A stretch of DNA of 64,000 nucleotides from positions 62,001 through 126,000 of the forward strand of contig NZ_JAFBCZ010000004.1 of the NCBI RefSeq assembly GCF_016907925.1, read 5' to 3'. A program made the translations under genes and the position numbers. The first letter of the stretch is position 1; each line of letters begins with the position of its first letter. Shown piece by piece: positions 58,784 through 61,885 of this stretch. Under the pieces are notes generated by a model, which worked only from the letters and a program-made list of their open reading frames with translations, was not told the origin of the DNA and ran no database searches. Source of the DNA: Herpetosiphon giganteus. GTDB lineage: Bacteria > Chloroflexota > Chloroflexia > Chloroflexales > Herpetosiphonaceae.

Positions 58784-58814
58784 CCAACCGATCGTCGTTA
58801 TGACGATCGGTTGG
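58784..58814. other. Hairpin after secreted paralog A gene
   Basis: A 13-bp perfect stem CCAACCGATCGTC/GACGATCGGTTGG lies 20 bases beyond the stop. The paralog at 60518 has a related hairpin (60468-60498, one mismatch in the core) at a similar distance, so the element was duplicated with the gene. Confidence 0.7.
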
Positions 58815-58833: not shown

Positions 58834-60312
58834 CTATTGAGTTTTGACGATCGGGATAAAGGTTTTATGGTCGAGAACCAGCACTCGTACTGTGATCGGA
58901 TTGCGAGCTTGAGCGCTGCCCCATGCCCAACCGCCGCCAGCAATTGGCACTTCGCCGGTTGCCCCAGCATCAATTTCGATCGTGCCAGGAGCGATGGCGC
59001 GTAAACCAATTTTGCGGCAGTGGGTTGGATGTTCATTAAATTTACATGGCATCGTCAACGGCGGGTCGAATTGTACAGTTCCGGTTGGGCTAAGCGTGAT
59101 GCCAGTATAGGGCACGCCAATATTGACATACTGAATCGTCAGACTGAAGGCCTCGCCAACATTAACCAAGTTGGGAGCACTCAAAATCAGTTCTTTAACA
59201 ATCGGCGTAACCGTCGGGCTGCCACTCGCTGGTGTGTTCGTTGGCGTACCAATACATGGACTAGCACGAAGTGCCAAATTGGTTGGACATGGTGTCGCTT
59301 CTAGATCTGGCGTTCCGGTCGGCGTGAACGTCGGCGTAGGCGTACACGGCGCTTGCGTCACTTGGGGCGCGTGTTGCATTGGCAACGTTGTTGGCGTATA
59401 GCACGGATAACTTGGAAACGTTGGCGTTGCTGTGCGTGTGCCGGTTGGCGTTGGGGTTGGCGTACACGGCGCTTGCGTCACTTGGGGTGCTTGTTGCATT
59501 GGCAACGTTGTTGGCGTATAGCACGGATAACTTGGCAACGTTGGTGTTGCCGTGCGTGTGCCAGTTGGCGTTGGCGTAAACGTTGGCGTAACGCATGGGT
59601 TGCTTGGTGTTTGGGTCAACTGTGGCGCTTGGCGTTGCCCAAGATTTGGTGTTGGCGTGCTGGTTGGCGTAATACATGGATTACTTGGCGTAAAGGTTGG
59701 CGTTGCGTTCGGATCGCTAATTGTGACCACGAGCGGCGCGCGAGCCGAACCCCAGCCCCAATACCAGCCATGATTATACGATTCGCCGGTTGCTGTCGCA
59801 TTAATCACTAACGTTCCAACATTCGTAGCGCGAATGGTAATGCTGCTACAGCCGGTTGGATGCTCGTTATACTTACAGGGCATGGTCAAGGCTGGATCAA
59901 ACTGGGACAACGAGGAATTGTTGAATCCAATGCTGGCATAGGGCATGCCAAGATTGATATACTGGATTGATAGTGTAAAGACTTGGCCAACCACCACTTG
60001 GCTTGGGCCACTCAAAATCAGTTCAGGTTGCACAAAACAGGGATCTGCGGTTGCGGTAATCGTTGGCGTGCCACTTGGTGGCAGCGTCGGAGTTAAATTG
60101 GGAACCCGCGCTTGGCTATTCTCACCCCGTGGAAAACAGCTAGGAGTAGCTGTCGCCGTAGGAGTAACCGTCATTGACGGTACTATAGTACTACCTGATG
60201 GGGTTTGAGTTAATAAGACCTTGGCGCTTGTTAGTGCAGGTTGTTTGGCTATAGCAAAGCCAAATAATACTGCACACAAACTCATTAACAGGGCCAGCCG
60301 CCTGTTGTTCAT
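58834..60312 (-). CDS. Secreted tandem paralog A, two copies of an unrecognised domain
   Basis: The 492-residue protein has a signal peptide (MNNRRLALLMSLCAVLFGFA), a Thr/Pro spacer and a first beta domain (about 98-200). A long TPT linker with Cys follows (about 205-365), then a second beta domain (about 372-478) and a short C-terminal end TFIPIVKTQ. Both domains share ELILS-P, FxLxIQY-N-G-PY, LTMPCK-NEHPT-C and an internal GWxWGSA. Two Cys in PCK and T-x-C probably form a disulfide. The linker contains two copies of a 40-residue unit (120-bp DNA repeat). GAGGAGG precedes the ATG. Family unknown. Confidence 0.7.
   Translation of the reverse strand: MNNRRLALLMSLCAVLFGFAIAKQPALTSAKVLLTQTPSGSTIVPSMTVTPTATATPSCFPRGENSQARVPNLTPTLPPSGTPTITATADPCFVQPELILSGPSQVVVGQVFTLSIQYINLGMPYASIGFNNSSLSQFDPALTMPCKYNEHPTGCSSITIRATNVGTLVINATATGESYNHGWYWGWGSARAPLVVTISDPNATPTFTPSNPCITPTSTPTPNLGQRQAPQLTQTPSNPCVTPTFTPTPTGTRTATPTLPSYPCYTPTTLPMQQAPQVTQAPCTPTPTPTGTRTATPTFPSYPCYTPTTLPMQHAPQVTQAPCTPTPTFTPTGTPDLEATPCPTNLALRASPCIGTPTNTPASGSPTVTPIVKELILSAPNLVNVGEAFSLTIQYVNIGVPYTGITLSPTGTVQFDPPLTMPCKFNEHPTHCRKIGLRAIAPGTIEIDAGATGEVPIAGGGWAWGSAQARNPITVRVLVLDHKTFIPIVKTQ
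59338..59577. repeat. 120-bp tandem repeat inside paralog A
   Basis: Two near-identical 120-bp copies begin at 59338 and 59458 and encode the Cys-Tyr-Thr-Pro-rich linker unit twice. The period is a multiple of three, so the frame is kept. Confidence 0.9.
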
Positions 60313-60319
60313 AGGAGTC

Positions 60320-60430
60320 CTCCTCTATTCGGATAGTAGGTCTAGGCTTTTAGTATTGCCGATGAGAACTACACCCGCTATAGGACAAATGGCCCAAAAA
60401 CTAACCTATCTAGCAATATAGATATTAAAA
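60320..60430 (-). promoter_or_regulatory. Duplicated upstream region, copy for paralog A
   Basis: About 105 bases are nearly identical to 61775-61885 ahead of paralog B. Both contain AGTAGGTCTAGGCTTTTAG, GGACAAATGGCCCAAAAA and an outer inverted repeat of the form CTATCTA-(5-6)-TAGAT. They include a CAATACT -10-like element on the minus strand. Confidence 0.7.
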
Positions 60431-60467
60431 ACGTATTAATAACACCCGAAATATAGCTTGTTAAATG

Positions 60468-60498
60468 CCAACCGATCGCCATAACGACGATCGATTGG
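60468..60498. other. Hairpin after secreted paralog B gene
   Basis: CCAACCGATCGCC pairs with GACGATCGATTGG across a five-base loop. One mismatch interrupts the core and one lies at the loop end, and the stop codon of paralog B lies 19 bases away. It matches the hairpin at 58784 in position and sequence. Confidence 0.6.
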
Positions 60499-60517
60499 CC
60501 ATGCCTGAATCAACGAA

Positions 60518-61765
60518 CTATTGGGTTTTGACCATCGGAACAAAGAGTTTATGGTCGAGAACCAGCACTCGTACTGTGATAGGATTGCGGGCGCGAGCAC
60601 TACCCCATGCCCAGCCACCGCCAGCAACAGGTACTTCGCCCGTCGCCCCAGCATCAATCTCAATTGTGCCAGGCGCAACGGCGCGTAAGCCAATCGTGCG
60701 GCAGTGGGTGGGATGCTCATTGAATTTACACGGCATGATCATTGGTGGGTCAAATTGCACGGTTCCGGTTGGGCTAAGTGTGATGCCGGTATAGGGCACG
60801 CCAATATTGACATACTGGATGGTCAAGCTGAAGGCCTCGCCAACATTAACCAAGTTGGGAGCACTCAAAATCAGTTCTTTGACAATCGGCGTAACGGTTG
60901 GACTAGCACTGACTGGCGTTGGCACAGGCGTACATGGTGGTTGGGTTATTTGGGGTACGCGGCCTTGTTGATTGTCGCCTGGAGTGCTATCGCAAATATA
61001 GCCATCCACCGTTGGGGTTGGCGTGAACGTTGGGGTTGCAACACATGGCGTTGGGGTTTGGGTCAACTGTGGTGCTTGGCGACCAGCAGGTGTTGGTGTT
61101 GCAGTATAGACTGTGGGTACTGCTGTAGTTACGACACACGTTGCGGTTGGTATTGGCGTAGCATTTGGATCGACAATATTAATTGTCAAGGGAGTTTTGG
61201 CACTTGCCCCACTCCAAAACCAACCATTATTAAACGATTCGCCTCTTGCTTGCGCCTCGATTACCAAAACACCAGCACTGGTAGCACGCAGCGTAATGCT
61301 CTGACAGCGGGTTGGATGCTGATCATATTTACATGGCATGGCTAATGGTGGATCAAAGCGCGCTAAATAATCATCGTTTAATCGAATCGTTGTATGTTGC
61401 ATGCCAATATTTTCATAGGCAATCGATAAGGTAAACAATTCCCCAACTTGAACTTGGCTAGGCCCACTCAGAACCAGAGCCGGATGCACATAACAAGGAT
61501 AGTAATTTGGGGTTGGAACCGTCGTGCGGGTTGGGCCTAATGTCTGTGTGCTATTCGGTGCTTGTGCTTGATTAAGCGGATAGTAGCTTGGACATGGAGT
61601 AGCCGTTAAACTGGGAGTAGCCGTTTCGGATGGTACTATAGTACTATCTGATGGGGTTTGAGTTAATAGGACTTTAGCGCTTGTTAGTACAGGTTGTTTG
61701 GCCACAGCAAAGCCAAATAACACTGCACACAAACTCATTAACAGGGCCAGCCGCCTGTTGTTCAT
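60518..61765 (-). CDS. Secreted tandem paralog B, two copies of an unrecognised domain
   Basis: The 415-residue protein repeats the plan of paralog A: nearly the same signal peptide, a first beta domain (about 98-200), a shorter TPT linker without the 120-bp duplication, a second beta domain, and the end LFVPMVKTQ. The second domains of A and B are almost identical, while the first domains differ more. Conserved PCK-(Y/F)-(D/N)-(Q/E)-HPT-(R/G/H)-C is present twice. GAGGAGG before ATG 61765 decides the start; five upstream in-frame codons overlap the ribosome site. Confidence 0.7.
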   Translation of the reverse strand: MNNRRLALLMSLCAVLFGFAVAKQPVLTSAKVLLTQTPSDSTIVPSETATPSLTATPCPSYYPLNQAQAPNSTQTLGPTRTTVPTPNYYPCYVHPALVLSGPSQVQVGELFTLSIAYENIGMQHTTIRLNDDYLARFDPPLAMPCKYDQHPTRCQSITLRATSAGVLVIEAQARGESFNNGWFWSGASAKTPLTINIVDPNATPIPTATCVVTTAVPTVYTATPTPAGRQAPQLTQTPTPCVATPTFTPTPTVDGYICDSTPGDNQQGRVPQITQPPCTPVPTPVSASPTVTPIVKELILSAPNLVNVGEAFSLTIQYVNIGVPYTGITLSPTGTVQFDPPMIMPCKFNEHPTHCRTIGLRAVAPGTIEIDAGATGEVPVAGGGWAWGSARARNPITVRVLVLDHKLFVPMVKTQ

Positions 61766-61774
61766 AGGGGTCCT

Positions 61775-61885
61775 CCTCAATTGGCTAGTAGGTCTAGGCT
61801 TTTAGTATTGCCGATGAGAACTAGACCTGCTATAGGACAAATGGCCCAAAAAACAATCTATCTAACCAGCTAGATATCAAAATTC
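61775..61885 (-). promoter_or_regulatory. Duplicated upstream region, copy for paralog B
   Basis: Nearly identical to 60320-60430. Here an inner pair, AGGTCTAG and CTAGACCT, is perfect on the two sides of the CAATACT element, while in copy A one arm is mutated. The outer inverted repeat is CTATCTA-ACCAGC-TAGATA-like. Confidence 0.65.

Follow-up and report, generated by a model that had tools for sequence, protein, structure and literature searches.

The 64,000-nucleotide stretch of Herpetosiphon giganteus DNA analysed here (the window; positions 62001-126000 of contig C4 in the 6.16-Mb genome, G000) carries two related genes, A and B, which lie, like their modules, linker repeat, tails and upstream regions given below, on the minus strand. 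Gene A (58834..60312) is an open reading frame for an apparently exported two-module protein of 492 amino acids, and genes of its family occupy the matching site in all six Herpetosiphon genomes compared. Gene B (60518..61765) begins at the ATG at 61765 and specifies a two-module protein of the same kind, of 415 amino acids, or of 420 if an in-frame TTG upstream of that ATG is used. From N to C terminus, each protein consists of what looks by eye, without a predictor, like a signal peptide (MNNRRLALLMSLCAVLFGFA...), an N-module, a Pro/Thr-rich linker, a C-module and a short tail. The N-modules, immunoglobulin-like (Ig-like) and related to DUF11, lie at 59713..60027 in A (profile match 1.3e-47) and 61169..61483 in B (5.6e-48), and the C-modules at 58876..59196 in A (1e-51) and 60560..60880 in B (2.6e-51).

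Besides H. giganteus, the genomes compared were those of H. aurantiacus DSM 785 (G001), H. geysericola DSM 7119 (G004), H. llansteffanensis CA052B (G005) and two further Herpetosiphon (G002 and G003). In all six, the family genes lie between a HIT gene and a CcmA-like gene, both of which were located in each of the five relatives by tblastn. The names of the flanking genes (HIT, CcmA-like ABC, MscS-like and PNP-like) are presumptive, given on sight of the sequences. G003 and G004 have a single gene in the array, G000 and G005 two, and G001 and G002 three; each family gene in the genus has two or three modules. In the first array gene of G002 (L033:9291-10940), an in-frame stop falls between the first and second modules, which suggests a decaying copy. 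Four spurious pattern starts inside signal peptides (G001_2, G002_2, G004_1 and G002_d) were ignored. None of the papers listed in our literature search names this gene pair.

The initial annotation had described A and B as a recent tandem duplication of a secreted protein together with its control region. That the genes are paralogs is borne out by their common signal peptide, domain plan, downstream hairpin and upstream DNA, in which 97 of 109 positions are identical over the 110 bases 5' of the two ATGs. Their divergence is also uneven along the gene, as had been claimed: the N-modules share 65% of their DNA sequence, whereas the C-module plus tail shares 87.1%. The C-terminal domains, said to be almost identical, are so as protein (94%), but at the DNA level their silent distance (Ks) is 0.567. 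Silent distances, calculated by the Nei-Gojobori method, show that the duplication was not recent. Between the N-modules of A and B, Ks is 1.31 in G000 and 2.22 in G005, more than the flanking genes reached in even the most distant comparisons made within the genus (0.51-0.96, for G000 against G001-G003), which places the origin of the pair before the sampled genus. Furthermore, the N-module of B groups with that of the third array gene of H. aurantiacus and of G002 (support 99/99 in a 12-row tree), and therefore the A/B split predates the sampled diversity of the genus. Approximately unbiased (AU) tests on the 12 N-module rows rejected A and B as sisters both in G000 (p 5.2e-11) and in G005 (p 4e-8); the dispersed G002 copy, G002_d, was included in the 13-row trees and excluded from the 12-row tests.

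A recent duplication followed by faster change in the N-modules and linkers would explain the similar upstream DNA, the nearly identical C-module proteins and the signal-region Ks of 0.171. We nevertheless regard it as highly improbable: silent change between the two N-modules is close to saturation, both gene types are present in G005, B's N-module has its relatives in H. aurantiacus and G002, and even the C-module Ks of 0.57 exceeds that of the flanking genes between G000 and G005 (HIT 0.28, CcmA-like 0.18, MscS-like 0.31, PNP-like 0.30). With protein ends that hardly differ and upstream DNA in common, the pair mimics a fresh duplication and invites this misreading, whereas silent sites read against flanking-gene yardsticks reveal an old family whose ends have been kept similar. 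This correction is the firmest result of the analysis.

Silent distances differ among the three segments of the genes. For the N-module, the distance between G000 and G005 is 0.55 for the two A genes and 0.27 for the two B genes, well below the A-B values given above. The C-module plus tail shows the reverse, with A-B distances of 0.57 and 0.59 within the two genomes and of 0.76 (A-A) and 0.66 (B-B) between them, so that C-modules at the same position are more distant than the flanking genes, which is what exchange between copies would give. In the signal region, where 38 codons contain few changes, A-B distances are 0.17 and 0.19, and those between the genomes 0.09 (A-A) and 0.11 (B-B). AU tests on the 12 C-module rows rejected grouping of the four B-types (p 0.0017), of G000_B with G005_B (0.0175) and of the A-types (0.019). 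A and B of G000 as an exclusive pair were also rejected (0.0059), because the H. geysericola gene nests with A, while A plus B of G005 was not rejected (p 0.22). With five tests, 0.0017 and 0.0059 pass the Bonferroni cut of 0.01; 0.0175 and 0.019 fail it, which weakens the case for exchange, and most forks of the 13-row tree of the 5' region are open. Taken together, the segment trees conflict, and we conclude that copies have traded 5' ends and C-modules, the N-module retaining its own history. Of the two causes offered in the initial annotation, gene conversion or uneven selection, the second is not required: when G000 and G005 genes of one type are compared, the ratio of replacement to silent change (Ka/Ks), averaged over sites, is 0.05-0.08 for N-modules and 0.11-0.15 for C-modules, and the N-module values give no sign of positive selection.

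The direction of the exchange and the process behind it are less clear. Instead of gene conversion, the conflicts could stem from unequal crossing over or from module cassettes being gained and lost, and we give this a substantial chance, though somewhat short of even. The number of modules per gene (two or three) and of genes per array (one to three) varies within the genus, and the linker of A contains a long direct repeat (59339..59574; 2.0 copies of a 120-bp unit, 94% matches). The single H. geysericola gene resembles A in its two modules (Ks 0.25 and 0.21) but has a 5' end of the G003/G001 type, its upstream DNA being 0.91 identical to that of G003 versus 0.75 to that of A. On the other hand, G000 and G005 keep both gene order and the two-module plan despite their C-module conflict, for which conversion is the simpler explanation. 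The data do not separate the two processes well. In the linker of A, the 120-bp units contain cysteines; one unit of this type is seen by eye in the H. geysericola gene, linker length differs among species, and family linkers appear by eye to be unusually rich in cysteine for Pro/Thr linkers.

Alignment of the upstream regions, combined with an element search, identified the element TTGGGCCATTTGTCCTATAGC in the conserved DNA before A (60313..60422) and B (61766..61875). It precedes all 12 family genes within the locus, exactly in eight and with one to four mismatches in four. An additional, dispersed family copy in G002 (L037:5750-6700) is not preceded by it, the best match there having 10 mismatches. 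In the five genus genomes searched (G002 left out), exact copies of TTGGGCCATTTGTCCTATAGC occur only before family genes; away from the family there are two matches with two mismatches each, one in a coding frame and the other at G004:C43. All ten exact matches of a looser core away from the family fall within long open frames. We found no TTGGGCCATTTGTCCTATAGC regulon in these genomes, though one-mismatch matches of the looser core exceed the reversed control in the genus (for example 26 versus 2 in G001, mostly at one mismatch). Downstream, fold calculations placed a hairpin after each gene, with ends read from the sequence (58784..58814 for A and 60467..60499 for B). The hairpins have 13-14 pairs and lack a T-run, and the folding energies are -32.0 kcal/mol for a stretch of 64 bases and -28.9 kcal/mol for one of 70. 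Neither was among the five sites of a terminator scan, against 3.6 (standard deviation 2.2) in shuffles, and both promoter and terminator scans of the window were close to the shuffle level. A single Rfam match, inside A (E 0.42), was far under the gathering score and was discarded.

The module was found in few genomes. A search of the H. giganteus genome detected five copies: A and B hold two each, and the fifth is at G000:C3:53363. Eight of 60 genomes, H. giganteus counted, had the module (6/6 Herpetosiphon and 2/54 others), and a second query returned the identical eight. Matches were found in 11 of 158 genomes of the class, nine of them clear, and in eight of 400 phylum genomes, none beyond the earlier lists, when 12 candidates per genome were scored. 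GTDB contigs, a scan of which may omit H. giganteus itself, yielded nine loci, of which three Herpetosiphon genomes contributed six and metagenome-assembled genomes (MAGs) the other three. The P-C-K-x-x-x-H-P-T-x-C motif reported in the initial annotation is present, and both of its cysteines are invariant in an alignment of 24 modules (no rows from G002 or G003); its HPT part, by contrast, varies outside the genus, the three non-genus rows reading EDPTGC, EDTSGC and EDASGC.

We find the module to be an Ig-like sandwich and a remote relative of DUF11, a stalk domain of fibrillar adhesins since renamed CLIPPER, according to PMC12617251. Two genomes of the class matched the module at 4.3e-5 and 3.4e-4, both on DUF11-type repeats. 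One (L055, residues 474-558) falls in a DUF11 stretch (471-588); the other (L054, 328-415) overlaps a domain of the related CLIPPER_2 family, DUF7507 (323-431), in a protein that carries a second DUF11 stretch besides. These two proteins scored 21.8 and 18.8 bits and the next of the 25 proteins compared 5.2 bits, whereas 1000 shuffled versions of the pair, 463 of which gave a score, reached at most 3.3 bits. Two further DUF11-bearing proteins, L124 and L097, scored below 1 bit. Comparison with seven DUF11 repeats by hhalign gave a probability of 93.4, an E of 2.4e-7 and 31% identity over 72 columns, and the C-x8-C loop aligned with the cysteine pair of the better repeat, that of L054. AlphaFold2, run on the C-module plus tail with 24 rows, modelled nine strands at a pLDDT of 92.4, the last ten residues forming a disordered tail (pLDDT 50). 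Of the disulfide-linked beta sandwich for which the initial annotation had proposed a structure prediction, the model shows the sandwich; the disulfide would be formed by the cysteine pair (Cys51 and Cys60 in module numbering).

Several observations weigh against kinship with DUF11. Even with the E limit set at 10, Pfam detected no DUF11 in A, in B or in three modules searched singly, and neither Pfam nor NCBIfam matched A or B at all, save for a BatD match below threshold in part of B (0.049). The hhalign comparison spans 72 of about 107 positions and leaves the last third unaligned, and only two of the seven DUF11 rows have the cysteine pair. PMC12617251 describes CLIPPER domains in which Lys and Asn form an isopeptide bond and an Asp is the putative catalyst, neither feature being universal; disulfides accompany isopeptide bonds in 29.7% of the domains. 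When the Lys and Asp columns were assigned by residue spacing from that text, none of 16 module rows had Lys, the Asp fell in a gap and the Asn region was unaligned. The module might then belong to an independent Ig-like family that has converged with DUF11 on a common sandwich, in keeping with the missing Pfam match and with the many unrelated Ig-like folds found at similar Z. Structure comparison returned mainly such folds, headed by a nuclear-pore protein (Z 10.9) and including cohesin-like modules (2jh2, 2vo8 and 2w1n; Z 9.0-9.6) and nanobodies (up to 8.7). We consider convergence improbable, since the profile matches lie in register on DUF11-type repeats, one including the C-x8-C loop, and score far above shuffles, and since hhalign found such identity across its 72 columns. 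The initial annotation, which did not recognise the domain, was therefore right as to Pfam, but a remote relative exists. It had also named a clear Pfam match, or single-copy orthologs everywhere, as outcomes that would speak against it; neither cleanly appeared, as Pfam gave no match and copy number in the relatives ranges from one to three. Residues 31-85 of B gave a PHROG match (4e-4), which lay in low-complexity sequence before the N-module and was set aside.

The fifth module of the H. giganteus genome, at G000:C3:53363, lies between GH10 (E 1.1e-104) and CBM_2 (7e-31) matches in a 618-residue protein (L003:1114-2970), and the same GH10-module-CBM2 order was found in all six Herpetosiphon genomes, by Pfam in one and by eye in the other five. 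The place of the module in this xylanase-like protein is consistent with a role as spacer. It also suits the view that the modules bind ligands, for example as a new carbohydrate-binding module by which the proteins would adhere to prey or to plant polysaccharide. Many modules of the genus have a strand with Trp, GGGWxWGxA, and cohesin-like modules of glycoside hydrolases are among the closest bacterial folds (2jh2, Z 9.6). The Trp, however, is not invariant, being missing in two of three non-genus rows and in some Herpetosiphon modules, and the likeness to cohesins is generic to Ig-like folds, nanobodies reaching nearly the same Z. The Cohesin family (PF00963) had no Pfam match to the module, and in a PDB sequence profile the best cohesin (E 0.47) ranked behind an unrelated surface glycoprotein (0.35). 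Spacer Ig-like modules are, moreover, common in modular glycoside hydrolases. Ligand binding is a live rival to the spacer role, although we judge it rather unlikely.

The tails of A (VLDHKTFIPIVKTQ plus stop; 58834..58878, low model confidence) and B (VLDHKLFVPMVKTQ plus stop; 60518..60562), both read from the sequence, share FIPIVKTQ at the extreme C terminus, beyond the last folded module. NCBIfam models a similar ending as the YLP-box, a putative sorting motif, and these existing models ruled out the idea that the tail is a wholly new motif. A strict form, YLPLVx[RS]-stop, occurs in 37 of 400 phylum genomes. By hand tally, there are 114 matches in 25 of the 40 genomes of the order, against 7 in the reversed control; outside the order, 19 matches in 12 of 360 genomes (six in G168, three in G236) are no excess over a control of 28. 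A Pro-to-Ala variant was absent from the 40 genomes of the order. Endings of the type YLPLVxR-stop or similar mark long, exported-looking proteins of the order (G020 loci L107-L126; L091, L096, L097, L101 and L106 in H. giganteus), among them an ExeM/NucH-type nuclease, reprolysin-type and subtilase-type peptidases and SdrD/DUF11 proteins. YLP-box models matched all ten genomes tried at E up to 10, above cut-off in eight (20 matches in G000, 34 in G020, 68 in G059, one or two in G162 and G010). They also matched 12 of 14 control genomes (above cut-off in two), so that single matches mean little. We found no paper using the term YLP-box, and the papers with YLPLV among the matches listed concern other subjects, judged by title and the start of the abstract.

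The attribution of the A and B tails to this motif is opposed by two results. The last 38 residues of each protein matched no NCBIfam family at E up to 10, NF050076 and NF053834 included, and the strict ending occurs only once in six Herpetosiphon genomes, indicating that the genus uses looser endings. L101, another candidate from the H. giganteus genome, likewise had no YLP-box model match. A loose pattern, [FY]-x-P-hydrophobic-[VA] followed by three codons and a stop, was not enriched by count in H. giganteus (23 matches versus 18 in the reversed control); among the 22 frame-checked (C24:903 left out), seven, A, B and five others, end long frames and 15 are short chance frames. With two codons before the stop, an excess was seen in only some of 12 genomes (match/control: G001 21/17, G002 20/8, G004 21/19, G009 3/8, G013 4/12, G016 23/5, G020 22/13, G028 8/8, G030 11/13, G041 13/17, G045 25/24, G047 23/25). 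The free last codon was Arg in 19 of 22 matches in G020, and Arg or Lys in 10 of 21 in G001 and 12 of 21 in G004; 18 of the 20 G020 matches fetched (of 22) terminate long frames. Because they lack a model match, we call the A and B tails only YLP-box-like. Comparable endings in relatives back the name: H. aurantiacus has FIPLARK and FIPLAKNQ, and two MAGs have RLFLPVVSVP and QLFLPLVVSP.

On balance, we moderately favour the interpretation that A and B belong to an old Herpetosiphon family of exported, non-catalytic proteins, encoded by a one-to-three-gene array at a fixed site, whose ends have been exchanged and whose DUF11-related modules act as a surface spacer or stalk. A disulfide-stabilised spacer or stalk is the most likely role, though it is read from architecture only, which counts against it. 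The proteins would be exported by Sec, a disulfide would close the C-x8-C loop, flexible Pro/Thr/Cys-rich linkers would space the modules as a short stalk, and the YLP-box-like tail would retain the proteins at the cell surface. More tentatively, and with doubt prevailing, Herpetosiphon and its order may use a very short, helix-free C-terminal tail as a surface-sorting signal read by a receptor or protease, of which A and B carry a divergent version on disulfide-pinned, DUF11-derived stalk modules. The boundaries of module, array and tail given here can serve surface-display tests in filamentous predators.

These proteins may be compared with four known systems. The tripartite sorting tags of MYXO-CTERM and related type, as described in PMC11980579, are likewise C-terminal tags on exported proteins; the tail of A and B, by eye, has no transmembrane helix or Arg cluster and is therefore unlikely to act as MYXO-CTERM does. 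With the YLP-box (NF050076, NF053834) the tail shares a short [FY]-[IV]-P-hydrophobic-V past the last folded module at the extreme C terminus, but A and B end in KTQ instead of x-Arg and have no NCBIfam match. The cohesin-like modules of Clostridium perfringens glycoside hydrolases (2jh2, 2vo8 and 2w1n) resemble the module as sandwiches at Z 9.0-9.6, little above the nanobodies, and also reside in modular glycoside hydrolases; identity is 9-13%, and the sequence match (E 0.47) was to another cohesin. Compared with DUF11/CLIPPER (PF01345), the module lies under Pfam detection, does not keep the lysine and aspartate positions, has one invariant cysteine pair and has an unaligned last third, yet both are Ig-like sandwiches in exported proteins, often in several copies, and align at 31% over 72 columns. 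DUF11 stalk domains and the YLP-box motif were already known; what is new is the array, restricted to this lineage, and its divergent module related to DUF11. A module that Pfam does not name, detected here in Herpetosiphon and in three MAGs from its order, is now placed beside DUF11.

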